From positions 186,001 to 250,000 of the forward strand of contig NZ_FOIJ01000011.1 in NCBI RefSeq assembly GCF_900111745.1: a stretch of DNA of 64,000 bases, written 5' to 3'. This document shows, one piece after another, positions 7,380 to 60,803 of this stretch (position 1 is its first letter; the number at the start of each line of letters is the position of its first letter). Origin of the DNA: Stigmatella erecta (GTDB taxonomy: Bacteria; Myxococcota; Myxococcia; Myxococcales; Myxococcaceae). The notes below the pieces were generated by a model. The model was given only the letters and a program-made list of their open reading frames with translations. It searched no databases and was not told the origin of the DNA. Made by a program: the position numbers and the translations under genes.

Positions 7380-10300
7380 ATGCACTCCTGGACCCCCAAA
7401 CTCCGCCATCTCCTCACCGGCCTCGCCCTGCTCGGCGTGGCAGGTGCCGCCTCCGCGCAACTGGGCGACACCACCCAAGACACGCCCGCCTGCTGCCAGC
7501 TCACCACGTCGCTCATCCAGGACGTGCTGCGCGGCAATGACCCTTCCGGCGACGAGCGCTTCTTCAGCGCCGAGGGCGCCCCGCCCAACCTGCACTTCAT
7601 CATCGACGTCTCGGGCTCCATGCGCGAGCTGCCGCAGGTCATCAACAGCCAGAACAAGGCGTTCTTCGACGCCACCGTGAACGGGTGCGAGAACCCCACC
7701 CTGCAAGCCTTCTCCGACAGCCACAGCTGGGACCCCAACCACCAGTACCCCGTGCCGGACACCGGCACGGGCCTGGGCGCGGACACGGGCTTCCCCAACC
7801 TGTTCCAGGACGACAAGTACTACGCGTATTACGTGTGGGGCTCCTCCTCCAGCCCCATCCCCCAGTGGACCAGCCGGGAGAACGCCTGCCAGCAGCAGGT
7901 GCCGAACTGGAACAAGCCCTCGGGCTCGGCCCAGTACAACCGGTGCCTGACCTGCTTGAAGACCAAGGGCTACTTCAAGGTGTTCAACACCACCACCGAC
8001 GAAGACGCGACCGCGAACACGAACTTCATCCTGTGGGGGCGCTTCCTCAACTTCAACCCGCCCAAGTACGTCACCGCCAAGGCGGTGCTCAAGCAGGTCA
8101 TCAAGGATCTGCGCCGGGTGCGCGTGGGCATCAGCATCTTCTCCGCGACGTCCACGAACGTGCAGAAGATGAAGCCCGCCTGCAATGAGATCCTCTCCAA
8201 CCCCGAGGCCTTCTCCACCTACCGCGCCGACTACATCTCGCGCATCAACTCGCTCAACTTCACGACCTCCACGCCCCTGGCGCGCTCGCTGCTGAACGCC
8301 GGCTACTACTTCACCTCCAGCCAGGACATCTACAAGACGGACTTCGGGTTCGGGGCCTCCTCGCCCTCGGGCTACACCTACCCCACCGACTTCAAGAGCG
8401 AAGCGCTGACCTCCGAGAGCCGCACGGTGTGCTGGGGCTGCCAGAGCTCGTCCATCATCATGATCACCGACGGTGAGCCCAACAGCGACACGCTGGGCGG
8501 CACCGTCGTGACGAAGATCCGGGAGCTCAACGGCGGCAAGGTCAACTGCCCGCCCTCCGCGCCGTGCCCGGACGCGAGCAACGACGCCAACTACATGCTC
8601 GACGACGTGGCGAAGCTGCTGGCCAACAAAGACCTGCAGAAGAGCATCCCGAACGTCATCGGGACCCTGGACACCTTTGGCCAGCAGTCGCTCAACATCT
8701 ACACCGTCGGCTTCGGCATCAACAGCAACCTGCTCCGGAACACCGCCGAAGTGGGCAACGGGCTCTACTACACCGCCGAGGACGCAGGCGCCCTCAAGGC
8801 CGCGCTCCTGTCCATCATCAACAACGTGCAGACGCGCTCCACGTCCTTCTCGGCCGTGGCCTCCAACAGCCTGCAGGTGCGCGACGCCGGCGCCACCGTC
8901 ATTCCGCGCTTCAAGCCCGCGCGCAACAAGGCCCAGCCCTGGCAGGGCTCCCTCTACCGCTTCAACCTGGCCTCGGAGAAGGTGCTCGGCTGCGTGCCGG
9001 GGGGCACGCCCCCCATCACGGGCGACCTCAACAACGACGGGGACTGCAATGACACGCACCTCATCGACAAAGAGAATCAGTCCGTCATCGAGAACGATCA
9101 GGGTGAGTTCGTGAGGCTGTCGGACCCCTCGGTCAAGGCGGTGCCGTTCTGGGAGGCCGGCAGCGTGCTCAAGCCGGCCGCGCAGCCGAACAATCCGTCG
9201 GATCCGGAGCGCACGATGCGCCGCTGGAAGACCCGCAAGGTGTTCACCATCATCGATAACCCGGATGCGCCCGATGGGAAGCTCGACAGCAAGGACACCC
9301 CGATCGAGTTCAGCGTCGCCAACGCCGGCAAGCTGCGTGAATACCTGGGCATCAGCCAGAACCCGCTCGAGTGCGAGGACCTGAAGGCCCAGCTGGGCCG
9401 CGTCAGCCTGACGCCGACGGAGTGCGCCGAGCTCATCATCCAGTGGTACCTGGGCGCGGACATCTTCGCCCCGCTGCCCCCCGGAGAGACCGAGCCCTAC
9501 GACCGGCCCTTCTTCCTGCAGGACATCTTCCACTCGGCGCCCGTGAGCGTGGATCCGCCGATCTCCAAGTTCTTCTGCTCCTTCTCCACCCAGTGCAGCC
9601 AGACGCTGTTCAGCAACCTGGGGGCGAAGAACTCGCAGGATTACACCGACGACGTGCTGACCGGCGACGCGTACGACATGTACGTCTACAAGCGTGGCGA
9701 GCGCGACAAGATCATCCTCGTGGGCTCCAACGGCGGCATGATTCACGCCTTCCACAACGGCTCGTTCCTCTCCAAGGACACCTATACGGGCATGGGCACC
9801 TACGACGCGGGCACGGGCAAGGAGCTGTGGGCCTTCGTGCCCCCGGACATGCTGCCCAAGATGCGCCCCAACCTGGGCAAGCACGGCTACTTCACCGACG
9901 GCACGCCGATGGTGCGCGACGTGTGGATCGACGGCGCGGGCACGGAGGTGCCCGAGCGCGATGCCATCAAGCAGTGGGACGAGTACCGCACCGTCGCGGT
10001 GGTGGGCTCGGGCCGCGGCGGCGTGCACCGCTTCGCGTTGGATCTCACCACCCTGCTGAGCGAGAACTTCGACCTCGAGCCCAACAAGGTGAACAACGTC
10101 TTCAAAACGCCGGGCGTCTTCCTGTGGATGTGGCCGCAGCCGTGTGACGAGCTGTCGCTCCAGCTGGGCGAGAGCTTCACCAACTATGCCCCGATGCCGC
10201 CCCCCCTCATTCCGGTGGCCGTGGAGCCCGCCACGGACAACGCCCTGTCGGCCGATAACGCCTCGCCCCAGCCCGCCAATCCTCCCATCATCGCCACCCA

Positions 10301-48727: not shown

Positions 48728-50440
48728 ATGAAGCCCCTCGCGGAGATGCTGCGCTACCTGTCCCATCCGGCCATCACGGAGCTGGCCCTGACCACCGGGC
48801 GCTGCCCGATGATCAAAAGCACCAATGGCTACGAGCCGGTGGACAACGCCGTTCTCACCGCGGACGAACTGAACCGCACCCTGCTGGCCATGGTGGGCCG
48901 GGAGCGCGCCGCCTCGGTGACGGAGAAGCCCGTGAAGTGGTCCGTGCGCGCCGAGGGCATGGCCACCCTGTCCATCGTCGCGGCGCGGCGCGGGGAACTG
49001 CTCAGCCTCCGGGTGATGCGCACCGGCGACAGCCCCACGGCCGCCCCGGGCACAAGCCCCGCTCCCGCCCCCGCCGAGGCCCCCGCCGCCGAGGCCCCCG
49101 CCGGGGAGCCGGGCGCCCCCGTGGCGCCCAACATCCCGCCCATCCGCCCCTCTTCCGTGGGCCTCAAGCCCGTCAGGGGCGCGGCCGCACCGGTGCCCCC
49201 CCCGGCGCTCAACCCGGCCCCCGCGGCCCCCGCCCCCGCGGCGGCCCCGGCCCTCGCGCCGTCCCTGCAGGTGGGGGCCTCCCGCGCGGACGCCGGGCGG
49301 GATTTGCCGGCGCTGATGGAGGAGGCCCGGCGGCTGGGGGCCAGTGACTTGCACATCGTCGCGGGCCGGCCGCCGCTGTTCCGCGTGGCCTCGGAGCTGA
49401 AGCCCGAGGGCGAGGTGATTTCCCCCGAGCGCGTGGAGCAGATGCTCCTGCCCCTGGTGCCCGCCCGCCTGCGGCCGGTACTGGACAAGGAGGGCAGCTG
49501 CGACTTCTCGCTCGAGGCGCCGGGCAAGGGCCGGTTCCGCGTCAACGTGGGCCGCCAGCGCACGGGCCTCAAGGGCTCCTTCCGCGTCATCTCCCGGGAG
49601 ATTCCCACCCTGGAGTCCCTGGGGCTGCCGCCGAGCATCGCCAAGGCGGCGCACCACCACCAGGGGCTCATCGTCGTCACCGGCCCCTCGGGCCACGGCA
49701 AGACGAGCACGATGACGGCCCTCGTGGACCTCATCAACCGCGAGTCCAAGCACCACGTGCTCACCGTGGAGGACCCCGTGGAATACCTCCACCCGCGCAA
49801 GCAGGCGCTCCTGAGCCAGCGCGAGGTGGGCACCCACACCCGCACCTTCGCCAGCGCCCTGAAGGGCTCGCTGCGCGAGGACCCGGACGTCATCGTCGTG
49901 GGCGAGCTGCGCGACACGGAGACGGTGCGCATGGCGCTGGCGGCGAGCGAGACGGGCCACCTGCTCATCAGCACGATGAACACCCCCAGCGCGGCGAAGA
50001 CCATCGACCGGTTGATCGACTTGTTCCCCCCCGGCGACCAGGCCCAGGTGCGCCTGACGCTGGCCTCCAGCCTGCGGCTCATCGTCAGCCAGCGGCTCCT
50101 GCCCTCCGCCGATGGCAAGGGCCTGGTGGTGGCCGCCGAGGTGCTCCCGGGCTCGGTGGCCCTGGGCAACCTCATCCGCGACAACAAGACGTTCCAGATT
50201 CCCTCGCTCCAGCAGCGCGGCAAGAGCCTGGGCATCATCCGCTTCGACGACTCGCTGGCAGAGCTCGTCAAGGCGGGCAAGACGACGCTGGAGATCGCCC
50301 GGAGCTTCGCCGAGAGCCCCGACGAGCTGGAGGCCGTGGTGACCGGCAAGCGCCCCGGGGCCCCCCAGCCCGAGGCGCCCGCGCAGGACCAGAAGCTGAT
50401 GAACAAGGTGGGCTCGCTGCTGGGCCGCCGCAGCGCCTAA
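48728..50440 (+). CDS. PilT-type ATPase with N-terminal extension
   Basis: A 570-residue protein. The C-terminal about 360 residues are a PilT/VirB11-type hexameric ATPase with Walker A GPSGHGKTST (Lys325), Walker B-like DPDVIVVGELRD, the Asp box VEDPVEYLHP and the His-box region GHLLISTMNTPSA. In the last, the usual His of LHTNSA is Asn, a change that may matter for activity. It starts with about 100 residues that resemble the N-terminal domain in a degenerate form (AITELALTTGRCPMI), then a long Ala/Pro-rich linker (about 100-190). PilT-type enzymes power pilus retraction. ATG 48728. Confidence 0.88.
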   Translation: MKPLAEMLRYLSHPAITELALTTGRCPMIKSTNGYEPVDNAVLTADELNRTLLAMVGRERAASVTEKPVKWSVRAEGMATLSIVAARRGELLSLRVMRTGDSPTAAPGTSPAPAPAEAPAAEAPAGEPGAPVAPNIPPIRPSSVGLKPVRGAAAPVPPPALNPAPAAPAPAAAPALAPSLQVGASRADAGRDLPALMEEARRLGASDLHIVAGRPPLFRVASELKPEGEVISPERVEQMLLPLVPARLRPVLDKEGSCDFSLEAPGKGRFRVNVGRQRTGLKGSFRVISREIPTLESLGLPPSIAKAAHHHQGLIVVTGPSGHGKTSTMTALVDLINRESKHHVLTVEDPVEYLHPRKQALLSQREVGTHTRTFASALKGSLREDPDVIVVGELRDTETVRMALAASETGHLLISTMNTPSAAKTIDRLIDLFPPGDQAQVRLTLASSLRLIVSQRLLPSADGKGLVVAAEVLPGSVALGNLIRDNKTFQIPSLQQRGKSLGIIRFDDSLAELVKAGKTTLEIARSFAESPDELEAVVTGKRPGAPQPEAPAQDQKLMNKVGSLLGRRSA

Positions 50441-50452
50441 GGACAGACGCAC

Positions 50453-51559
50453 ATGAACGCCCAGCCCCGCATCGCCACGCTCTTCGACGCGCTGCTCGCC
50501 GAGAAGGGCAGCGACCTCCACATGAGCATCGGGCACCCGCCCATGGGCCGCATCCGCGGGGAGCTGACGCCCCTGCGCGAGGCGCCGCTCACCGCGCCCG
50601 AGCTGGAGGGCCTGCTGTTCGACCTGGTCAACCCGGACCAGAAGAAGCAAATCACCGAGGAGATGGACCTCGACTTCGCCTACAGCTACGGGACGAAGGC
50701 CCGCTTCCGCGCCAACTACTTCTACAAGACGACGGGCCTGGCGGCCGTCTTCCGCACCATTCCCAGCAAGGTGCTCACGCTCACGGACCTGAACACCCCG
50801 GAGGTGGTGCGCAAGCTGGCCGAGCGCCGCAGCGGGCTGGTGCTCGTCACCGGCCCCACGGGCAGCGGCAAGTCCACCACGCTCGCGGGGATGATCAACC
50901 ACATCAACCAGACCCGCCACGCGCACATCCTCACCATCGAGGACCCGGTGGAGTTCGTGCACGAGTCGCTCAAGGCCCAGGTGACGCACCGGGAGGTGGG
51001 CCCGCACGCCATCAACTTCGCCACCGCCATCCGCTCGGCGGGCCGCGAGGACCCGAACGTCATCCTCATTGGCGAGTTGCGCACCAACGAGACGATGAAG
51101 CTGGCGCTCCAGCTGGCGAGCTTCGGCGTGCTCGTGTTCGCCACGGTGCACACCAACAGCGCGCCGGCCACCATCGACCGCATCGTCAACGCCTTCCCCG
51201 CCGACGAGCAGCCCGCCATCCGCGGCATGCTCGCCGAGAGCCTCGCGGGCATCGTCGCCCAGCAGCTCATCCGCACCGCGGACGGCAAGGGCCGCGTGGC
51301 GGCGCTGGAGATCCTCATCGGCGGCAGCGCCATCTCGTCGATGATCCGCGAGGGCAAGGTGTTCCAGATCGCCAGCAAGATGCAGGCGGGCCAGGCCCAG
51401 GGCATGCAGACCCTGGACATGCACCTGGAGAAGCTGGTGGCCGCGGGCACCATCGCCCCCGAGGCCGCGCTGGACAAGGCCCAGGACCGCGAGTCCTTCG
51501 CCAAGACGCTCCAGCGCATCAAGCCAGACTTCGTGCTGTCCGACGACCTGAAGGGCTAG
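50453..51559 (+). CDS. PilT/PilU-type twitching motility ATPase
   Basis: A 368-residue ATPase of standard PilT length with every expected motif: Walker A GPTGSGKSTT (Lys140), EDPNVILIGELR, VEDPVEFVHE and FATVHTNSAPATIDRI, including the conserved His box. C-terminal helices as in PilT. ATG 50453 is 12 bases after the upstream PilT-type gene, so the two are co-transcribed and may form a mixed or paired retraction motor, as PilT and PilU do. It acts on the inner-membrane platform of the type IV pilus. Confidence 0.93.
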   Translation: MNAQPRIATLFDALLAEKGSDLHMSIGHPPMGRIRGELTPLREAPLTAPELEGLLFDLVNPDQKKQITEEMDLDFAYSYGTKARFRANYFYKTTGLAAVFRTIPSKVLTLTDLNTPEVVRKLAERRSGLVLVTGPTGSGKSTTLAGMINHINQTRHAHILTIEDPVEFVHESLKAQVTHREVGPHAINFATAIRSAGREDPNVILIGELRTNETMKLALQLASFGVLVFATVHTNSAPATIDRIVNAFPADEQPAIRGMLAESLAGIVAQQLIRTADGKGRVAALEILIGGSAISSMIREGKVFQIASKMQAGQAQGMQTLDMHLEKLVAAGTIAPEAALDKAQDRESFAKTLQRIKPDFVLSDDLKG

Positions 51560-51594: not shown

Positions 51595-51651
51595 TACGAA
51601 GCTCTTCGTTGACTCCTACGAATGGCTTCGTATATTGGTTCGTACCACGAA
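51595..51651 (+). promoter_or_regulatory. BlaI promoter with three TACGAA-type operators
   Basis: TTGACT (51609-51614) and TATATT (51631-51636) with a 16-base spacer form a good housekeeping promoter. Around it are inverted repeats of one word: ACGAA-N4-TTCGT (51596-51609, over the -35), TACGAATGGCTTCGTA (51617-51632, perfect 6-base arms with 4-base gap, over the spacer and -10), and TTCGT-N3-ACGAA (51639-51651, past the start). This fits autorepression by the BlaI protein of the gene at 51661. Confidence 0.75.
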
Positions 51652-51660
51652 GGAGCCTCC

Positions 51661-52047
51661 ATGGCCGAGCCCAAACTGCCGCGTCCCACGGACGCCGAGC
51701 TGGCGATCCTCCGCGTCCTGTGGGAGCGGGGCGCCAGCACCGTCCGAGATGTCCATGACTCGCTTCAGGATGGGACGGGCTACACCACCGTCCTGAAGCT
51801 GATGCAGATCATGACCGAGAAAGGGCTCGTGGTCCGCGACGAGTCCCAGCGCGCGCACGTCTACAGCGCCCGGGTGGCCCAGCAGAAGACCCAGCGCCAG
51901 CTCGTGGCGGACCTGGTGGACCGCGCCTTTGGCGGCTCCCCGGCCCAGCTCGCCCTGCAGGCCCTCTCCTCGAAGAAGACGTCCCCCGAAGAGCTGGCCG
52001 AGCTGCGCCGGCTCCTGGATTCGCTGGAGCAGGAGGACACGCCATGA
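51661..52047 (+). CDS. BlaI/MecI-family repressor
   Basis: A 128-residue winged-helix repressor. The start PTDAELAILRVLWERGASTVRDVHD and GYTTVLKLMQIMTEKGLV are strong family marks, and R-x-H-V-Y-S follows. The ATG at 51661 has AAGGAGCC upstream. BlaI proteins block transcription until cleaved by, or after signalling from, their M56 partner, which follows with an ATGA overlap. Three related inverted repeats lie in the promoter. The target genes beyond the pair itself are not evident; no beta-lactamase is nearby. Confidence 0.95.
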   Translation: MAEPKLPRPTDAELAILRVLWERGASTVRDVHDSLQDGTGYTTVLKLMQIMTEKGLVVRDESQRAHVYSARVAQQKTQRQLVADLVDRAFGGSPAQLALQALSSKKTSPEELAELRRLLDSLEQEDTP

Positions 52048-53807
52048 GGGAGCTCATCTTGGAGTCACTGGGCTGGGCACTGCTGCACCTCGTGTGGCAG
52101 GGCGCGCTCGTGGCCGCCGTGCTCGCGCTCGGACTGCGCCTGCTGGGGCCCCGGGCCGCCGCCCGCTATGGACTCGCCTGTGGCGCGCTGGGGCTGATGC
52201 TCCTCCTGCCCGCCGCCACCGGTTGGCAGCACCTCCGCGCCCGGCAGGCCCCGGCGGCCGTGTCCTCCCTCCCGGCCCTCTCCGGGCAGTCCTCCCTGGC
52301 ACCCGCCTCCAGGGCCGGGGCGGCGCCCGCGTCCTCACCGGCCGCGTCCCTGCGCGCCCGGGCCACCGCCTTCACCGGCGGCCTTCTGCCCTGGGGGGTG
52401 CTCGCCTGGGGGCTGGGGGTGGCGGGCTCCTCCCTGCGGCTGCTGGCCGGGTGGGTGCGCCTGCGCCGGAGGGTGCGCGAGGCGTTCCCTGCCCCCGAAG
52501 CGTGGCAACTCCGGCTGGAGGCGCTCGCGCGGCGCCTGGGGGTGAAGCGCGAGGTGCGCCTGCTCCAGTCCCCCACGCTGGAGGTGCCCTCCGCCCTGGG
52601 GTGGTTGCGGCCCGTGGTGCTGCTGCCCGTCTCCACCCTCACCGGCCTGCCCGCACGTCAGCTCGAGATGATCCTCGCGCACGAGCTGGCGCACATCCGC
52701 CGTCATGACTTCGCGGTGAACCTGCTCCAGACCGTGGTGGAGACGCTGCTCTTCTATCACCCGGCCGTCTGGTGGATGTCCCACGTCATCCGCGTGGAGC
52801 GCGAGAACTGCTGCGATGACGCCGCCGCGGGCCTGACGGGCAACGCCCTCTCCTACGCCCGGGCACTCACCGCCCTGGAAGCCCTGCGTGTCATGCCCTC
52901 GCCCGCGCCAGCCCCCGCCCTCTCCGCGCTGGGAGGCTCGCTGCCGGAGCGCGTGCGCCGGCTGGTGGCCGCGCCTCCCTCCCGGTGCGCCTCCCGCTGG
53001 ACGGCGGGCGCTTCCGTGCTGGTGCTGATGAGCAGCCTCGCGGCCGCGGCGCCCCTCACCGCCCGGGTGCTGCCCGCCCAGGCCCCGCGCTCGCTGCTGG
53101 CCGCAAGCCCGGCCACACCTGCCGAGCCCCCCGCGGCCCCGGCCCCCTCGGCGAGTCCCGCGCCCGCGCCTGCGCCCCATGGGGCCCCCCAGCCCAACCC
53201 GGCCCCGGCACCTCGGCCGTCCGCTGTCCCTTCGCCCCACGAGGCATCCCACGCCGGGGAGGACGCGCTTCCCGGGGATTCGCACGCCAAACCCCGGCGC
53301 ATCGTCCCCACGAAGCCGCGGAAGGACGGGGGGCAAGACCCGGCCCTGCAGTCCCTCCTGCCGTCCGGCATCACCGAGGCGTACGCGAAGGGCCTCCAAG
53401 CCCACTTCGAACAGCCCCTGTCCTCCGAGGAGCTCTTCACGCTGAAGCACCTGGGCGTCACCGCCGAGGAGGTGGACGCACTGAAGCGGCTGGGCTTCTC
53501 GGAGGTGGTCCCGGACACCGTGGCCGCCGCCCATGCGGTGGGCGCCACCGAGGCATACCTGCGCGCGCTCAAGGACGCCGGCTACACGGATCTGGAGAAG
53601 GCCACGGGGATGCGCGCCCTGGGCATCACCCCGGAGACGCTCACCGGCCTGGCCCGCGCGGGCTTCACCGGCCTGAGCGCGGACACGCTGATGGGATTCC
53701 AGGCCACCGGTGTCACGCCCGCATTCATCGAGGAGATGCGCGCCCAGGGCCACGAGCCGCTCACGCCAGAGGCGTTGATCCGCCTTCGCCTGGGCAAGCA
53801 GCCCTGA
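52044..53807 (+). CDS. M56-family (BlaR1-like) zinc protease with C-terminal repeats
   Basis: A 587-residue membrane protein. Four predicted helices in the first 320 residues flank the cytoplasmic-side zinc protease: HELAH with His213, Glu214 and His217, and the third-ligand region RVERENCCDDAA. Unlike BlaR1 it has no penicillin-binding sensor domain. After a last helix (about 315-335) comes a Pro/Ala-rich linker and about 150 C-terminal residues of four repeats of about 27 residues each (G-V/I/A-T-x3-L ... AGF/GYT...). It would sense an unknown signal and cut the BlaI repressor. Its start overlaps blaI by ATGA. The repeat region is known in some other M56 proteins but undefined in function. 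Confidence 0.85.
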   Translation: MRELILESLGWALLHLVWQGALVAAVLALGLRLLGPRAAARYGLACGALGLMLLLPAATGWQHLRARQAPAAVSSLPALSGQSSLAPASRAGAAPASSPAASLRARATAFTGGLLPWGVLAWGLGVAGSSLRLLAGWVRLRRRVREAFPAPEAWQLRLEALARRLGVKREVRLLQSPTLEVPSALGWLRPVVLLPVSTLTGLPARQLEMILAHELAHIRRHDFAVNLLQTVVETLLFYHPAVWWMSHVIRVERENCCDDAAAGLTGNALSYARALTALEALRVMPSPAPAPALSALGGSLPERVRRLVAAPPSRCASRWTAGASVLVLMSSLAAAAPLTARVLPAQAPRSLLAASPATPAEPPAAPAPSASPAPAPAPHGAPQPNPAPAPRPSAVPSPHEASHAGEDALPGDSHAKPRRIVPTKPRKDGGQDPALQSLLPSGITEAYAKGLQAHFEQPLSSEELFTLKHLGVTAEEVDALKRLGFSEVVPDTVAAAHAVGATEAYLRALKDAGYTDLEKATGMRALGITPETLTGLARAGFTGLSADTLMGFQATGVTPAFIEEMRAQGHEPLTPEALIRLRLGKQP

Positions 53808-54739: not shown

Positions 54740-55300
54740 ATGGGCTCCTTCCGCCGAGGGTTTCTCAGGGCCGCGCAGGGCCTCGGTATGGGGGCAGCTT
54801 GCCTGATGGGCCTTCTCTCGCTGCCAGGCTGTCAGAGCGAGTCCCTTCCAGCCTACGTCCGGCTCGGCGGACAGGCCCCAGCGCTTGCGAGTGCGCCCCC
54901 GTCACGGGCCTGGCTCGTCGTCTTCTGGGCCTCGTGGTGCCCGCCCTGCCGGGAGGAGACGCCCGCCCTGGTGAAGCTGGCGGAGGCGCCTCCCGAGGGG
55001 CTGCGGGTCGTCGTCTTCAGCCACGACGCGCACCTCCAGGCCGTCGAGGCGTTTCTGGGGGGCCCTCCCGCCGCCGGGCTCCACCTGCGCCTGGATGAAG
55101 GGCACGCAGTGGCCCGTGCCTTCGGCGTCGACGCCCTCCCCGCCAGCATCCTGGTGGTGGACGGACACCTGACGGCCCGCTTCTCGGGGGCCAGGGATTG
55201 GGATTCCCGGGCCATGCGGCGCTTGCTGGAACGGCTGCTCCAGGAGCGCCGCCCCACCGGGGCGGCCTCGCACATTGACGTGCCCCCGCGTCCTCAGTAA
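54740..55300 (+). CDS. Thioredoxin-fold lipoprotein (TlpA/ResA-like)
   Basis: A 186-residue lipoprotein (lipobox LPGC, Cys31) with the thioredoxin-fold active site WCPPC (Cys67, Cys70) in FWASWCPPCREE and the cis-Pro ALPASILVV. TlpA-type proteins reduce disulfides or copper sites in the periplasm. Followed 11 bases later by a Cys-rich membrane or exported protein and then an RND metal pump, it is placed to keep their Cys motifs reduced or loaded. ATG 54740 has no strong ribosome-binding site; a longer frame starting upstream would not give a lipobox. Confidence 0.85.
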   Translation: MGSFRRGFLRAAQGLGMGAACLMGLLSLPGCQSESLPAYVRLGGQAPALASAPPSRAWLVVFWASWCPPCREETPALVKLAEAPPEGLRVVVFSHDAHLQAVEAFLGGPPAAGLHLRLDEGHAVARAFGVDALPASILVVDGHLTARFSGARDWDSRAMRRLLERLLQERRPTGAASHIDVPPRPQ

Positions 55301-55311
55301 GCCCAGGGCCG

Positions 55312-55611
55312 ATGCCGTACCTCCTGCGCATCCTTGCCCTGCTGCTCGTGCTGACGGCCGGGGGCGTCTTCCAGACGCTCGCGCTCGTGAGCGAGGGGGC
55401 CGTGCCGTGCGAGGACGAGGAGGGCACGGAAGAGCCGTGCGCGGACTGCACGGTGTGCCTGTGTTGTCCCCACCGGGCCCTGGCGGGCACGCCGCTGGTG
55501 GACATGCGGGTGCTTCCTCCCGCCTCCCGCCCTTCTCCCGTCCCGCTGCGCCTGCACGCGCCGGTGCCCTCGGGCGTCACGGCCGACATCTTTCAGCCCC
55601 CGAGAGCCTGA
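55312..55611 (+). CDS. Small Cys-rich protein of the metal cluster
   Basis: A 99-residue protein, with a hydrophobic segment (about 3-26), then a Cys-rich core CEDEEGTEEPCADCTVCLCC (residues 33-52) and a C-terminal ADIFQPPRA. Six cysteines in about 20 residues suggest metal binding. C-termini of this kind are seen on small proteins beside CzcCBA-type pumps (DUF2946-like), a resemblance only. ATG 55312 is 11 bases after the thioredoxin-like gene. Function unknown. Confidence 0.7.
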   Translation: MPYLLRILALLLVLTAGGVFQTLALVSEGAVPCEDEEGTEEPCADCTVCLCCPHRALAGTPLVDMRVLPPASRPSPVPLRLHAPVPSGVTADIFQPPRA

Positions 55612-55702
55612 CGTCCTCCGTCCAGGCCGTCGTGTGTCCAGCGTCCCGCCCGGGGCCCTGGACTCACGCGTGAAATCGCGTCCCTTCTGAATCCCTTCTG
55701 CG

Positions 55703-55723
55703 CCCCGGGCCTGCCGCCCGGGG
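55703..55723 (+). terminator. Hairpin between the small Cys-rich genes
   Basis: CCCCGGGC (55703-55710) pairs perfectly with GCCCGGGG (55716-55723) around a five-base loop, 92 bases after the stop of the 99-residue gene and 52 bases before the next ATG. It could be a terminator or attenuator of the metal cluster. No T tract. Confidence 0.45.
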
Positions 55724-55774
55724 CCTTGCCGCCGTGCGCGCCCCCTCCGGGGCCTGCCGGCTGGAGTTGCCTTC

Positions 55775-56053
55775 ATGCGTTCCTTGCGTTCCCTGTCCCT
55801 GTCCCTGGCGCTGTGCCTCGTGTCCGTCCCCGTCCTTCCCGCCTGGGCCGGCGAACCCCCGCCGCCCGCTGCCCCCGCCGAAGCGGCCAAGCCGAAGTGC
55901 GAGCACGGCGTTCAAAAGTCCCTCTGCACCCGCTGCAATCCCAAGCTGGCCCCCGTCTACAAGTCCAAGGGGGACTGGTGCGCCGAGCACGAGCGCCCCG
56001 AGTCCCAGTGCGTCCTCTGCCACCCGGAGCTCGCCCAGAAAGGCGTGAAGTAG
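55775..56053 (+). CDS. Small exported protein with two Cys/His metal-binding repeats
   Basis: A 92-residue exported protein. Signal peptide cut near residue 25 (AWAG), a short Pro/Ala linker, then two units of the pattern C-x(1,2)-H-x6-C-x2-C-x-P: CEHGVQKSLCTRCNP and CAEHERPESQCVLCHP. Each unit offers three Cys and one His. The same repeat occurs four times in the adaptor gene that follows at once (its ATG is directly after this stop). A periplasmic metal carrier handing ions to the pump is an attractive but untested role. Confidence 0.8.
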   Translation: MRSLRSLSLSLALCLVSVPVLPAWAGEPPPPAAPAEAAKPKCEHGVQKSLCTRCNPKLAPVYKSKGDWCAEHERPESQCVLCHPELAQKGVK

Positions 56054-57619
56054 ATGCGGCCTGCCCGCATCCTCCCGGCCGCGCTGGGGGCCCTCCTGTG
56101 GTGCATCGCGGGGGCCGCCTGCACGAAGGACTCCCAAGCCCTCCCGGTGGGCCCGTCCTCCTCGGGCCCCGGGGATGCGGGCCCGCCCGCCCAGGAGTCC
56201 ACCGCAGTTCAACTGTGTGAGCATGGCGTCCCGGCGGACCTGTGCACCCGCTGCACGCCCGAGCTCGCGGAGGTCTTCCAGGCCCAGGACGATTGGTGTG
56301 AGGCCCACCAGGTGCCCGAGTCGCAGTGCCGCGCATGCAACCCGGGGCTCACCTTCACCGGCACCCCTTCCGTGCCCAAGGACTGGTGCCCGGAGCACGC
56401 CGTTCCCGAGTCCCACTGCACCAAGTGCCACCCGGCGCTCATCGCGCGCTTCATCGAAGCGGGCGACTACTGCCGGGAGCACGGCTTCCCGGAGTCCGTC
56501 TGCCCCCACTGCCACCCGGAGCGCGTCCGGGCCGCGGGCGCGGAGCCTCCCGCCTTCCCCCCCCCGGGCATGCGCGTGCGCCTGGCCTCGGAGGAGACCG
56601 CGCGCGAGGCGGGCATCACCACGCGGCGCGTGGCGCAGCAGCCCCTGGCCCGGACGCTGGAGGTGGTGGGCCAGCTCGCCTTCAACCACAACCGCTCCGC
56701 CCCGCTCACCGCCCGGGGGGAGGTGCTCGTCCTGGAGGTCCTCGCCGATGTGGGGGACTCCGTGAAGGCTGGCCAGCCCCTGGCGGTGGTGGCCTCCGCC
56801 GCCGTGGGGGAGGACCAGGGCCGGCTCTCCGCGGCCCAGGCCCGTGTCGCGGCGGCGCGCTCGGCGCTGGGCCGGGAGCAAGCCCTGCTCCAGCGCGGCA
56901 TCAGCTCCCAGAAGGACGTGGAGCAGGCACGCACCGAGCTGGCCGCGGCCGAGGGGGCCCAGGACGCGGCGCGCGCCGCGCTCTCCGCCGCGGGCGTGGG
57001 GGCTGCGAGCCCCCCGGGCCGGTACACGCTCAAGGCCCCCCTGTCCGGCACCGTGGTGGCGCGCGATGCGGCCCCCGGCCGGCACGTGGCCGCCGGCCAG
57101 ACGCTGCTCCACGTGGCGGACCTCTCCACCCTCTGGGCCCAGCTCGACATTCCCGAGGCGGATGCCCTGTCCGTGCGCGCGGGCCAGAAGGTGACGCTCC
57201 AGTTCGAGGGCCTTCCCGGAGAGGCCCGCGAGGCCACCCTCACCCGCGTCGCGGCCTCGGTGGACCCTGCCACCCGCACCGTGCGCGCCCGCGTGGAGCT
57301 GCCCAACCCGGACCAGGCGCTCAAGGCAGGCCTCTTCCTGCGCGCCCGCATCCAGGTGTCCCCCGCGCATGCGGCGGTGATGGTTCCCCGCGAAGCCATC
57401 CAGCACGCCGAGGGGCGCACGCTCGTCTTCGTGAAGCGGGAGGCGGGCCTGTACGAGCCCGTCGCCGTGGAGCTGGGCGCCGGCACACCCGGGCAGGTGG
57501 AGGTGGTGAAGGGGCTCGCCCCCGGCGCCGAGGTCGTCACCACGGGGGCGTTCCTCCTCAAGACGGAGATCCTCAAGGGCTCCATCGGCGCGGGCTGCTG
57601 CGAGGAAGGCGGCGAGTAA
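56054..57619 (+). CDS. CzcB-like RND periplasmic adaptor with four Cys/His repeats
   Basis: A 521-residue membrane-fusion lipoprotein (lipobox AGAAC, Cys23). N-terminal part (about 55-160) has four repeats of C-x(1,2)-H-x6-C-x2-C-x-P, e.g. CEHGVPADLCTRCTP and CREHGFPESVCPHCHP. Then the HlyD/CzcB body: a barrel-sandwich, alpha-helical hairpin (about 255-305) and the beta domain with ATRTVRARVELPNPDQ. It connects the CzcA-like pump to an outer-membrane channel. No CzcC/TolC-type gene is present in the window. The repeats are far longer than the usual metal-binding N-terminal tails of CzcB. The last residues CCEEGGE add a Cys pair. Confidence 0.9.
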   Translation: MRPARILPAALGALLWCIAGAACTKDSQALPVGPSSSGPGDAGPPAQESTAVQLCEHGVPADLCTRCTPELAEVFQAQDDWCEAHQVPESQCRACNPGLTFTGTPSVPKDWCPEHAVPESHCTKCHPALIARFIEAGDYCREHGFPESVCPHCHPERVRAAGAEPPAFPPPGMRVRLASEETAREAGITTRRVAQQPLARTLEVVGQLAFNHNRSAPLTARGEVLVLEVLADVGDSVKAGQPLAVVASAAVGEDQGRLSAAQARVAAARSALGREQALLQRGISSQKDVEQARTELAAAEGAQDAARAALSAAGVGAASPPGRYTLKAPLSGTVVARDAAPGRHVAAGQTLLHVADLSTLWAQLDIPEADALSVRAGQKVTLQFEGLPGEAREATLTRVAASVDPATRTVRARVELPNPDQALKAGLFLRARIQVSPAHAAVMVPREAIQHAEGRTLVFVKREAGLYEPVAVELGAGTPGQVEVVKGLAPGAEVVTTGAFLLKTEILKGSIGAGCCEEGGE

Positions 57620-57624
57620 CCCCC

Positions 57625-60600
57625 ATGCTCACCCGCATCATCGACTGGAGCCTGCACCACCGTGGGGCGGTGCTCCTGGGCACGCTGGCGCTCGCGCTCT
57701 CCGGGGTGCTCTCGTTCCAGGCCCTGCCCCTGGATGCCCTGCCGGACACCACCCCGCCGCAAGTCCAGGTGAACACCCTGGCCCCGGCGCTCACACCCGT
57801 GGAGGTGGAGCGTCAGCTCACCGTCCCCATCGAGCAGGCGCTGACGGGACTTCCCCGGTTGGAGCAGATGCGCTCGCTGTCCAAGCCGGGCCTGTCCCAG
57901 GTGACGCTCCAGTTCGGCGACGGCACGGACGTGTGGTTCGCCCGGCAGCAGGTCTCGGAGCGCCTGGGCCACGTGAGCCTGCCCGAGGGCCTCGAGCGCC
58001 CCACGCTGGGCCCCGTGGCCACGGGGCTCGGAGAGATTTTCCACTACCTGGTGAAGAGCCGGACGCGGAGCCTCACGGAGCTGCGCACCCTGCAGGACCG
58101 GGTCATCGCCCCCGCGCTGCGCGGCGTGCCGGGGGTGGCGGAGGTCAACAGCTGGGGCGGCGAGGAGAAGCAGTGGCACGTGGTGGTGGAGCCCCAGCGG
58201 CTCCAACAGTTCCACCTGTCGCTGGGAGACCTCTACCAGGCGCTGGAGGCCAACAATGCCAACGTAGGCGGAGGCCGGGTGGAGCAGGCGGGGGCGGCCC
58301 GCCTCGTGCTCGGCGTGGGCGCGCTGGAGGGGGGCGCGGCGGTGGAGGAGGTCACCGTGGCCGCCCGCGATGGGGTGCCGGTGCGCGTGCGGGACGTGGC
58401 CCAGGTGCGGGTGGGCCCGGCGCCGCGCCAGGGCGCCACCACCGCGGAGGGGGAAGGCGAGGCCGTGCTGGGACTGGGCTTCATGCGCATGGGCGAGAAC
58501 TCCCACGCGGTGAGCCAGGCACTCACCCAGCGGCTGGAGGAGGTCCGCCAGCGCCTGCCCCCGGACGTGCAGGTGGACCTCGTCTACGCGCGCACGGAGC
58601 TGGTGGAGCAGGTGCTGCGCACGGTGCGCAACAACCTCCTGGAGGGCGCGCTGCTCGTCATCGCCATTCTCTTCGCCTTCCTGGGCCACTGGCGGGCGGG
58701 GCTCATCGTGGCGGCGGCCATCCCCCTGTCCCTGCTGTTCGCCTTCAACGCCATGGTGCCGCTGGGCATCGCCGGCACGCTCATGTCGCTGGGCGCCATC
58801 GACTTCGGCCTCGTCGTGGACTCCTCCGTCATCCTCGTGGAGAACGCCGAGCGGCGGCTGGCCGAGGACGCGGGGCGCCGCAGCGTCCTGGAGGTGGTGC
58901 GGGATGCGGCCGTCGAGGTGCGCAAGCCCACCCTCTTCGGCGAGCTCATCATCCTGGTGGTGTACCTGCCCATCCTCACGCTGGAGGGGGTGGAGGGAAA
59001 GCTCTTCCGCCCCCTGGCGCTCACCCTCATCTTCGCCTTGCTCGGCAGCGCGCTCCTGTCCATGACGCTGATGCCGGTGCTCGCCTCGTTCGTCCTGAAG
59101 CCAGGCCAGGGGCCCCACCGGGAGCCGCGCCTCGTGGGGCTGCTGCAGCGGCTCTACCGGCCGGTGCTCGACGGGGCCCTTCGCCACGGCCGGGCCGTGC
59201 TCGCGGGCGCGGCCCTCCTCACGGTGGGCGCCGCCGGGGCCGCCCTGGGGCTCGGCAGCGAGTTCGTTCCCCGGCTGTCCGAGGGCACCCTCGTCATCAA
59301 CACCGTGCGCTTGGCGGAAGTCTCGCTCGCCGAGTCCATCCGCTACGGCGGGCACATCGAGGCCCTGCTGCGCCGCAAGTTCCCGGACGAGGTGAAGCAC
59401 GTGTGGACGCGCACGGGCACGGCGGAGGTGGCCACGGACCCCATGGGCCTCGAGCTGTCCGACGTCTTCATCACCCTCCACCCCCGGGCGCAGTGGACGC
59501 GCGCCGATACGCAGGAGGAGCTCGTGGCGGAGATGAAGGCGGAGCTGGCGGACCTTCCCGGCATGCGCATGGCGTTCCTCCAGCCCATCGAGATGCGCGT
59601 CAACGAGATGCTCGCCGGGGTGCGCGGCGATGTGGCCATCAAGCTCTTCGGGGAGGACCTGGACCTCTTGAAGGCCAAGGCCCAGGAGGTGGAGGCCCTG
59701 GTGCGCCCCCTGCCGGGGGCGGCGGATGTCACCGTGGAGCAGGTGACGGGCCAGCCCATCCTGCACGTGACGGTGGACCGGGCCGCCGTGGCCCGGTACG
59801 GCATTCCCGCCCGGGACGTGCTCGACGTGGTGGAGGCCGTGGGGGGACGCCGCGTGGGGGACGTGCGCGAGGGGGAGCGGCGTGTCGAGCTGGCCGTGCG
59901 CCTGGCCGACGAGTACCGGCAGAACCCGGCCCGGCTGGCCACCGTGTCCGTGGTGGCCCCGGACGGGGTCCGCGTGCCGCTGGGGCGCCTGGCCACGTTC
60001 CGCGAGCTGTCCGGCCCCACCACCGTCCAGCGGGAGGGCGGCCAGCGCCGACTCGTCATTCAGGCCAACGTGCGGGGGCGCGACCTGGGCGGCTTCGTGG
60101 AGGAGGTGCGCCGCACCCTGGACGCGAAGCTGGAGCTGCCCACCGGGTACGCTGTCCGCCTGGGCGGCTCGTTCGAGCACCTGGAGCGTGCCCGGCAGCG
60201 GCTGCTGCTCGTGGTCCCCGGGGCCCTGGCGCTCATCTTCCTCCTGCTCTACCTCACCTATGGCCGCGTACGGGATGCCCTGCGCATCTTCGCGGGCGTG
60301 CCGTTCGCGATGGTGGGCGGCGTGCTGGCGCTGCTCGTGCGCGGCCTGCCCTTCTCCATCTCCGCGGCCGTGGGCTTCGTGGCGCTCTCGGGCGTCTCGG
60401 TGCTGGGGGACATGGTGCTCGTCAGCCGGGTGCGCCAGCTCCTCGGCCAGGGCGCCGCGCCCGGAGAGGCCATCCGGGAGGCGGCCCTGTCACGCCTGCG
60501 TCCGGTGCTGATGACCTCCGCCGTGGCGGCGCTCGGCTTCGTGCCCATGGCGCTCCACACGGGGGTGGGCGCGGAGGTGCAGCGGCCCCTGGCCACCGTC

Positions 60601-60726
60601 GTCATCGGAGGCGTCCTGTCCTCGGCCGTGCTGACGCTGCTGGTGCTGCCCGTCCTCTATGCCGTGCTCGGCACCGGCCAGGACGCTCCCCCAAGACAGC
60701 CCAGGGCGCCAGACACGACCGCTTGA
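57625..60726 (+). CDS. CzcA-like heavy-metal efflux RND pump
   Basis: A 1033-residue inner-membrane RND transporter. The heavy-metal-efflux signature in TM4 is present: DFGLVVDSSVILVEN, in which the normal D-F-G-x-x-V-D-G-A has Ser for Gly and Ser for Ala. Twelve helices in two sets, two large periplasmic loops, and the GAIDFG motif fit a proton-driven Zn/Co/Cd/Ni or Cu/Ag pump; the metal cannot be read from this. ATG 57625 is five bases after the adaptor stop. It is the last gene of the metal cluster, followed by tandem palindromes. Confidence 0.95.
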   Translation: MLTRIIDWSLHHRGAVLLGTLALALSGVLSFQALPLDALPDTTPPQVQVNTLAPALTPVEVERQLTVPIEQALTGLPRLEQMRSLSKPGLSQVTLQFGDGTDVWFARQQVSERLGHVSLPEGLERPTLGPVATGLGEIFHYLVKSRTRSLTELRTLQDRVIAPALRGVPGVAEVNSWGGEEKQWHVVVEPQRLQQFHLSLGDLYQALEANNANVGGGRVEQAGAARLVLGVGALEGGAAVEEVTVAARDGVPVRVRDVAQVRVGPAPRQGATTAEGEGEAVLGLGFMRMGENSHAVSQALTQRLEEVRQRLPPDVQVDLVYARTELVEQVLRTVRNNLLEGALLVIAILFAFLGHWRAGLIVAAAIPLSLLFAFNAMVPLGIAGTLMSLGAIDFGLVVDSSVILVENAERRLAEDAGRRSVLEVVRDAAVEVRKPTLFGELIILVVYLPILTLEGVEGKLFRPLALTLIFALLGSALLSMTLMPVLASFVLKPGQGPHREPRLVGLLQRLYRPVLDGALRHGRAVLAGAALLTVGAAGAALGLGSEFVPRLSEGTLVINTVRLAEVSLAESIRYGGHIEALLRRKFPDEVKHVWTRTGTAEVATDPMGLELSDVFITLHPRAQWTRADTQEELVAEMKAELADLPGMRMAFLQPIEMRVNEMLAGVRGDVAIKLFGEDLDLLKAKAQEVEALVRPLPGAADVTVEQVTGQPILHVTVDRAAVARYGIPARDVLDVVEAVGGRRVGDVREGERRVELAVRLADEYRQNPARLATVSVVAPDGVRVPLGRLATFRELSGPTTVQREGGQRRLVIQANVRGRDLGGFVEEVRRTLDAKLELPTGYAVRLGGSFEHLERARQRLLLVVPGALALIFLLLYLTYGRVRDALRIFAGVPFAMVGGVLALLVRGLPFSISAAVGFVALSGVSVLGDMVLVSRVRQLLGQGAAPGEAIREAALSRLRPVLMTSAVAALGFVPMALHTGVGAEVQRPLATVVIGGVLSSAVLTLLVLPVLYAVLGTGQDAPPRQPRAPDTTA

Positions 60727-60803
60727 AAGGGCCGGCTCCTGACCGGTCAGGAGTGGCGAAGGGCCCTGCTCCTGACCGGTCAGGAGTGGCGAAGGGCCCT
60801 GCA
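60727..60803. repeat. Tandem perfect palindromes after the RND pump gene
   Basis: The perfect 18-base palindrome CTCCTGACCGGTCAGGAG occurs twice (60736-60753 and 60769-60786), each inside a repeat unit of 32-33 bases (60727-60758, 60759-60791), with a third partial unit from 60792. It starts one base after the pump stop. It could be a double operator for the next gene, a palindromic repeat element, or a terminator/mRNA-stabilising hairpin pair. The rest of the 253-base gap to 60980 holds nothing else clear. Confidence 0.75.

Follow-up and report, generated by a model that had tools for sequence, protein, structure and literature searches.

The 64,000-nucleotide stretch of Stigmatella erecta DNA analysed here (the window) encodes a short cysteine- and histidine-containing repeat, usually paired, that is a real coding feature under purifying selection. 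The repeat occurs both in a small exported protein and at the N-terminus of the adjacent pump adaptor, within an operon for a heavy-metal RND exporter. We favour, with a probability of about 0.6, a periplasmic capture-and-delivery system for efflux that would work by analogy with CusF and CusB, the repeats providing Cys3His sites for a thiophilic metal.

Layout of the metal operon

The apparent extent of the operon is about 54740-60726, and its parts are as follows.

54740-55300, + strand: TlpA/ResA-like thioredoxin lipoprotein (Pfam Redoxin 4.9e-12, Thioredoxin 2.1e-9)
55312-55611, + strand: 99-residue exported Cys-rich protein, ending DIFQPPRA
55775-56053, + strand: free exported 92-residue protein, a signal peptide plus one two-unit module
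55895-55936, + strand: unit 1 of the free protein (residues 41-54)
55979-56020, + strand: unit 2 of the free protein (residues 69-82)
56054-57619, + strand: CzcB-like RND periplasmic adaptor, 521 residues, predicted lipoprotein (Cys23), C-terminal Cys-Cys tail (HlyD_D23 2.1e-41)
56216-56512, + strand: adaptor N-terminal domain, four units forming two paired modules (residues 55-153)
57596-57601, + strand: adaptor tail Cys515-Cys516 (SIGAGCC), the position at which seven relatives have UGA
57625-60726, + strand: CzcA-type HME-RND pump with TM4 motif DFGLVVDSSVILVEN (TIGR00914, 1143 bits)

The genes for the TlpA-like lipoprotein and the 99-residue protein lie just 5' of the 92-residue gene and in the same orientation. 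The adaptor gene abuts the stop of the 92-residue gene (56054 against 56053), and czcA starts 5 bp past the end of the adaptor gene. The TlpA-like lipoprotein, whose start codon was picked by inspection, begins MGSFRRG and has the lipobox LPGC and the active site WCPPC. The 99-residue Cys-rich protein has no Pfam match; from its appearance we take it to be CzcI-like. Short Cys-rich proteins that resemble it, with ends of the F.PPR type, were found in 15 of 64 module loci, including some next to the thioredoxin-fused forms described below. At one locus a degenerate module copy (L125:6838-7497) overlaps an intact gene of this kind.

The repeat and its conservation

Six units in the window match C-x(1,2)-H-x6-C-x2-C-x-P, two in the 92-residue protein and four at the adaptor N-terminus, where the sequence-only reading had correctly placed them. 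Those of the free protein are C41-H44-C51-C54, in which C41 E H is read as spacing x1, and C69-H72-C79-C82; those of the adaptor lie at residues 55-67, 82-95, 112-125 and 140-153. The repeat is not a chance match, because in the 9.2 Mb of the S. erecta genome a paired-module profile matches these three pairs and nothing else, the best at E=2.8e-23. Comparisons of the 92-residue gene with its orthologues gave Ka/Ks values of 0.13-0.31, as expected of purifying selection, and its module differs from those of L005 and L006 by 1 nonsynonymous against 11-12 synonymous changes.

The consensus of the paired unit (alignment A1) is CxEHxVPExxCTxCNPxLxAxFxAxGDWCAEHGxPESQCxxCNPxL; its rows were selected for the Cys/His spacing but not for L17, D26 and S36, which are conserved as well. 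Ligand conservation was counted in 236 distinct units gathered with a unit profile, a set less biased than A1: the His is present in 236 of 236, the third-ligand Cys in 234 and the fourth-ligand Cys in 233. The ligands depart only to Asp (L030, L031) or to His (L025, L137, L127). This conservation supports the earlier suggestion that the module is likely to bind metal. The two loci with Asp have free carriers (L030:3379-3738 and L031:5574-5918, both + strand) with Asp in place of one Cys per unit, giving C..H......D..C and D..H......C..C, and the adaptor keeps all its Cys. It is possible that the Asp ligands shift the metal preference of these carriers.

The repeat in databases and predicted structures

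When single proteins, 29 relatives and the module profile were compared with Pfam, NCBIfam and the PDB, no entry above its cut-off covered the repeat, which agrees with the earlier judgement that it had not been characterised. It appears to be an uncatalogued domain rather than a known one. At E<=1 the Pfam matches of the window proteins include no model of the CusF family and no heavy-metal-binding domain of the YxCPMHP type (HMBD), and the latter is also absent from the 29 relatives at E<=0.1. The B-box zinc finger PF25287 reached 10.7 bits against a Pfam cut-off of 27. No description of the repeat turned up in the mostly open-access main texts searched, which dealt with metal pumps of Myxococcus, with HME classes and IhpB, and with selenoproteins.

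AlphaFold2 models the module of the free protein, without metal, at a pLDDT of about 85-94 over most of residues 41-90. The adaptor head is predicted as two modules, mostly at 78-92, with a break near residues 103-107. Foldseek/VIA searches with the free-module model returned no match, solved structures included, which is unsurprising at so small a size.

Pump and adaptor class

The pump scores 1143.2 bits against TIGR00914, the HME-RND family of CusA and CzcA (cut-off 701.45), and belongs to that family. It does not fit the HME1/HME2 classes of CzcA and CnrA, for which the published TM4 motif is DFGx3DGAx3VEN (PMC3637150): its TM4 reads DFGLVVDSSVILVEN, or DFGxxVDSS. This difference places the pump in a separate subgroup.

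Nor does it have the metal-site residues of the Cu(I)/Ag(I) pump CusA (HME4). The methionine triad M573/M623/M672 is the metal site of CusA, and these positions align with N, L and E in the window pump. By alignment the pump also keeps the acidic TM4 residues of the CzcA type. Together, the residues at the triad positions and the acidic TM4 residues would favour a divalent substrate over Cu(I)/Ag(I).

The adaptor is an RND periplasmic adaptor by its match to TIGR01730 (187.4 bits, cut-off 94.9) and to HlyD_D23 (142 against 30). With 187.9 bits it falls below the cut-off of 319.3 for the CzcB/NccB subfamily TIGR00999, and is thus CzcB-like without being a member. The best solved relatives of adaptor and pump are ZneB and ZneA.

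Eight genomes were searched with the window CzcA. A module lies within 1.5 kb of all 10 pumps of the DSS/DSA type (defined by the motif DFGxxVD-S-S/A) and beside none of the 6 DGA/DGS-type paralogues in the same genomes. The wider set of loci mostly fits this link; the exceptions, in which the nearest pump is of another type, are L044, L045 and L208.

Distribution and architectures

Profile searches of the kind the sequence-only reading had proposed matched 56 of 147 genomes of the window's class and 57 of 195 of its phylum, Myxococcota, as well as 51 of 294 genomes sampled from Planctomycetota, the phylum of a Phycisphaerales MAG. Matches are rare elsewhere, with 3 among 198 genomes from the phylum of a Desulfuromonadaceae MAG and 1 among 398 that share a phylum with a gammaproteobacterial MAG. 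The module is also present in one Eisenbacteria MAG and in Polyangium, and a plasmid search returned two weak planctomycete matches only. Judged by its distribution and its link to one pump type, the module is probably a metal-handling domain, so far uncatalogued, by which one pump subclass can be recognised in Myxococcota and Planctomycetota and for which a profile model could already be built.

The module is built into proteins in three ways. It forms free exported proteins of about 90-160 residues, it stands at adaptor N-termini as a run of one to nine units, and it is fused to thioredoxin in lipoproteins. The earlier expectation of a free periplasmic form beside an adaptor-fused one is thereby borne out. 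In Myxococcaceae-type genomes the fused lipoprotein consists of one module followed by a thioredoxin domain, as in the following examples, and further cases are L127, L129, L131 and L138.

L126:6353-7021, - strand: thioredoxin-fused lipoprotein
L128:6732-7505, + strand: thioredoxin-fused lipoprotein
L130:6721-7401, - strand: thioredoxin-fused lipoprotein

These fusions, together with the TlpA-like gene present in Myxococcaceae operons, substantiate the thioredoxin link noticed earlier, and they appear to tie the module to thiol reduction. The fused forms lie mostly away from CzcA and adjoin a protein of about 290 residues that has a weak outer-membrane beta-barrel likeness in two loci.

The expected CzcA neighbourhood is found for the other forms, with a CzcA homologue in 53 of the 57 non-thioredoxin module loci, all of them fetched by module matches alone. 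Three of the remaining four (L023, L025, L042) end at a contig edge, and the fourth, L125, is the degenerate copy. Genes for an outer-membrane factor of efflux systems and for an ArsR-type regulator adjoin the module in the loci tested. Where the free gene sits depends on the phylum: in Myxococcota it is on the upstream side of the adaptor, in Planctomycetota often downstream of CzcA. This difference suggests that the association of module and pump survives rearrangement. In many loci the adaptor units occur without a free protein nearby.

The adaptor tail and probable selenocysteine in relatives

The C-terminus of adaptors that bear the module reads LKxSIGAGC(C); adaptors of the same genomes that lack it tend to have His tails such as SMGEGHSH, GEGHSH and GGGHSH (L174, L175, L176, L181, L183). 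The pairing of Cys tails with the module and His tails with its absence suggests a coordinated shift to thiol ligands. The window adaptor has Cys515-Cys516 at this position. Seven adaptors from the sampled Planctomycetota genomes have an in-frame TGA in place of the tail Cys codon, followed by conserved codons, as listed here with the residues from the UGA onward (the UCPEK tails read, for example, GAG-UCPEK).

L145, adaptor 7485-10265, - strand: Sec-tail candidate, UADDE
L044:4047, + strand: Sec-tail candidate, UAD
L199, - strand: Sec-tail candidate, UCPEK
L204:1899, + strand: Sec-tail candidate, UCPDK
L208:2347, + strand: Sec-tail candidate, UAD
L210, - strand: Sec-tail candidate, UCPEK
L220:2033, + strand: Sec-tail candidate, UCPEE

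A bSECIS-like hairpin of at least 5 perfect pairs, with GU in the loop and starting 14-17 nt past the UGA, is found at 7 of 7 UGA tails and 0 of 63 others, by position and loop criteria that were written after the cases had been seen. The loop is GGUC in two of the seven. Folding-energy z-scores do not separate UGA from Cys tails; shuffled GC-rich sequences fold as well, and the energies do not stand out against them. Reassignment of TGA as a sense codon was rejected because several of the UGA-tailed genes use TGA as their own stop, only a few codons further downstream.

Both SelB and tRNA-Sec scored above cut-off in four of the genomes concerned (G283, G346, G361, G433); G325 has SelB only (tRNA-Sec at 46.5 bits, cut-off 47), G355 has tRNA-Sec only and G152 has neither, in sets that may be incomplete since several of these genomes are fragmented assemblies. 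With one or both components in six of seven genomes, the UGA-tailed adaptors are probably selenoproteins, selenocysteine being the best reading of the codon. The S. erecta genome itself encodes SelB (G000:C5:113890-115800, L233) and tRNA-Sec (G000:C14:61968-62062, L241), both above cut-off, and its adaptor uses Cys.

These adaptors resemble bacterial selenoproteins with Sec in place of Cys in having UGA at a conserved Cys position, a downstream hairpin with G/U in its loop, and at least part of the Sec machinery in six of the seven genomes. They differ in kind, as no RND adaptor was found among selenoproteins in NCBIfam or in the main texts of the selenoprotein literature searched. If the reading is correct, selenoproteins would extend to efflux-pump adaptors, and that literature would hold no earlier example of a selenoprotein in an RND efflux pump. 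The apparent selenocysteine also points to the Cys-Cys tail pair as functional.

A proposed model of periplasmic capture and delivery

In the mechanism that we favour, the three Cys and one His of each unit would form one tetrahedral metal site. The free 92-residue protein would diffuse through the periplasm and take up a thiophilic metal ion, and the modules of the lipid-anchored adaptor would receive the ion from this carrier or catch it independently. The adaptor head would thereby concentrate the ion where the CzcA-type pump takes it in for expulsion, and the adjacent TlpA-like lipoprotein may keep the periplasmic Cys sites reduced. The ligand chemistry and the pump motif suggest that the metal is probably a divalent soft ion (Zn, Cd or Pb) rather than Cu(I) or Ag(I). 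Support for the putative delivery chain proposed earlier comes from gene order and from the fusions.

The closest functional parallel is E. coli cusCFBA, in which the exchange of metal between CusF and the CusB N-terminus is experimentally established (PMC4446572). There, too, a free periplasmic carrier is encoded beside an HME-RND operon and the adaptor has a metal-binding extension. SilB offers a further likeness, since a domain that is free elsewhere (CusF) is fused to its C-terminus (PMC4446572). The parts are different, however: CusF folds as a beta-barrel and handles Cu(I)/Ag(I), the Cys3His repeat has no detected relation to it in sequence or fold, and the window pump lacks the Met site of CusA. 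The window system would therefore work like CusF and CusB with unrelated parts, and would not be a member of their family.

The divalent-metal exporters CzcCBA and ZneCAB are related by descent, in that adaptor and pump are homologous to ZneB and ZneA and the acidic TM4 residues are kept. Unlike ZneB, the window adaptor has N-terminal units and a Cys tail outside the aligned part, and the pump has DFGxxVDSS in place of the HME1/HME2 motif DFGx3DGAx3VEN (PMC3637150). By gene order alone there is also a likeness to nieIC-cep-nieBA of Cupriavidus (RND-HME5), where cep, the gene of a small exported protein, lies between nieC and nieB with nieI upstream (PMC7060636).

It is tempting to go further and to speculate that these loci represent a distinct, undescribed efflux class with thiol or selenol ligands throughout, comprising Cys3His carriers and adaptor heads, a Cys-Cys or Sec-Cys tail, reducing thioredoxin partners and a DSS-type pump of its own. 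We hold this broader proposal only tentatively and lean slightly against it. The set of free, adaptor-fused and thioredoxin-fused forms would predict how periplasmic thiol sites are loaded and how they stay reduced in an oxidising compartment. Against the capture model stand the many loci whose adaptor units have no free protein nearby, the few loci in which a pump of another type is nearest, and the location of the thioredoxin-fused form, mostly away from CzcA, which shows that the module is also used in at least one different context.

Alternative explanations

The main rival to capture and delivery is that each unit is a structural zinc finger that holds a permanent Zn and docks carrier, adaptor and pump, the transported metal never using the unit. 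The C-x2-H...C-x2-C arrangement has zinc-finger spacing, 9 of the 29 relatives show a weak B-box likeness (best E=0.0014, the window member showing none at E<=0.1), and a compact predicted fold without a solved relative would fit a small knuckle. We nevertheless consider this unlikely: one to nine units per adaptor would be odd for a docking surface, and the adaptor tail turns to Cys together with the module. Sequence cannot fully separate docking from capture. It is also possible to see the Cys residues as substrates or donors of thioredoxin-like proteins, in a disulfide relay or in metal reduction, with metal binding secondary. The TlpA-like gene in the operon, the module-thioredoxin fusions and the apparent UGA at the adaptor tail Cys would all suit such a role, selenocysteine usually being found in oxidoreductase active sites (PMC1794560). 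The selenocysteine argument, however, concerns the tail and not the repeat, in which the most invariant residue is the His. Moreover, the natural changes of Cys to Asp or His keep metal ligands and destroy disulfides, which makes a purely redox role less likely, and we regard it as improbable.

Two other readings seem very improbable to us. Heme attachment, as in a c-type cytochrome, might be suggested by the CxxCH found in 59 of the 236 units, three of the six window units among them, and by the part that TlpA-like proteins play in cytochrome maturation. We rejected it, as CxxCH is missing from every unit in 49 of 97 module proteins (among the short ones, in 26 of 40), the residue in question is Asn in 117 units, and the invariant C-x2-H has no role in heme attachment. 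An exported Cys-rich carrier could equally serve metal uptake, and the sequence-only reading had described the module as one of metal acquisition. That claim does not stand: the pump falls in the heavy-metal exporter subfamily TIGR00914, and outer-membrane efflux and ArsR-type genes lie beside the module in relatives, so the module would capture metal for efflux rather than for acquisition.

Age of the adaptor fusion and neighbouring sequences

In a tree of 112 modules over 46 columns, the free, adaptor-first, adaptor-second and thioredoxin-fused modules of Myxococcota each cluster across genera. Clustering by module type rather than by genus suggests that the fusion in the window is old, and the adaptor modules would not represent a recent copy. 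As a recent event, the copying of the repeat onto the adaptor proposed earlier has no support from this tree, and the fusion may have arisen in either direction. Some Planctomycetota loci have free and adaptor modules that are alike within one locus, so that copying may have occurred repeatedly there.

Three further features of the window lie near the metal operon. Just 3' of czcA, at 60727-60802, is a 33-bp tandem repeat of 2.3 copies that includes CTGACCGGTCAG. Upstream, two T2SSE-type (PilT-like) ATPase genes follow one another at 48728-51559, and 51622-53807 holds a BlaI-type repressor gene and, after it, the gene of a BlaR1-type M56 peptidase protein, a pair with no apparent connection to the metal operon.
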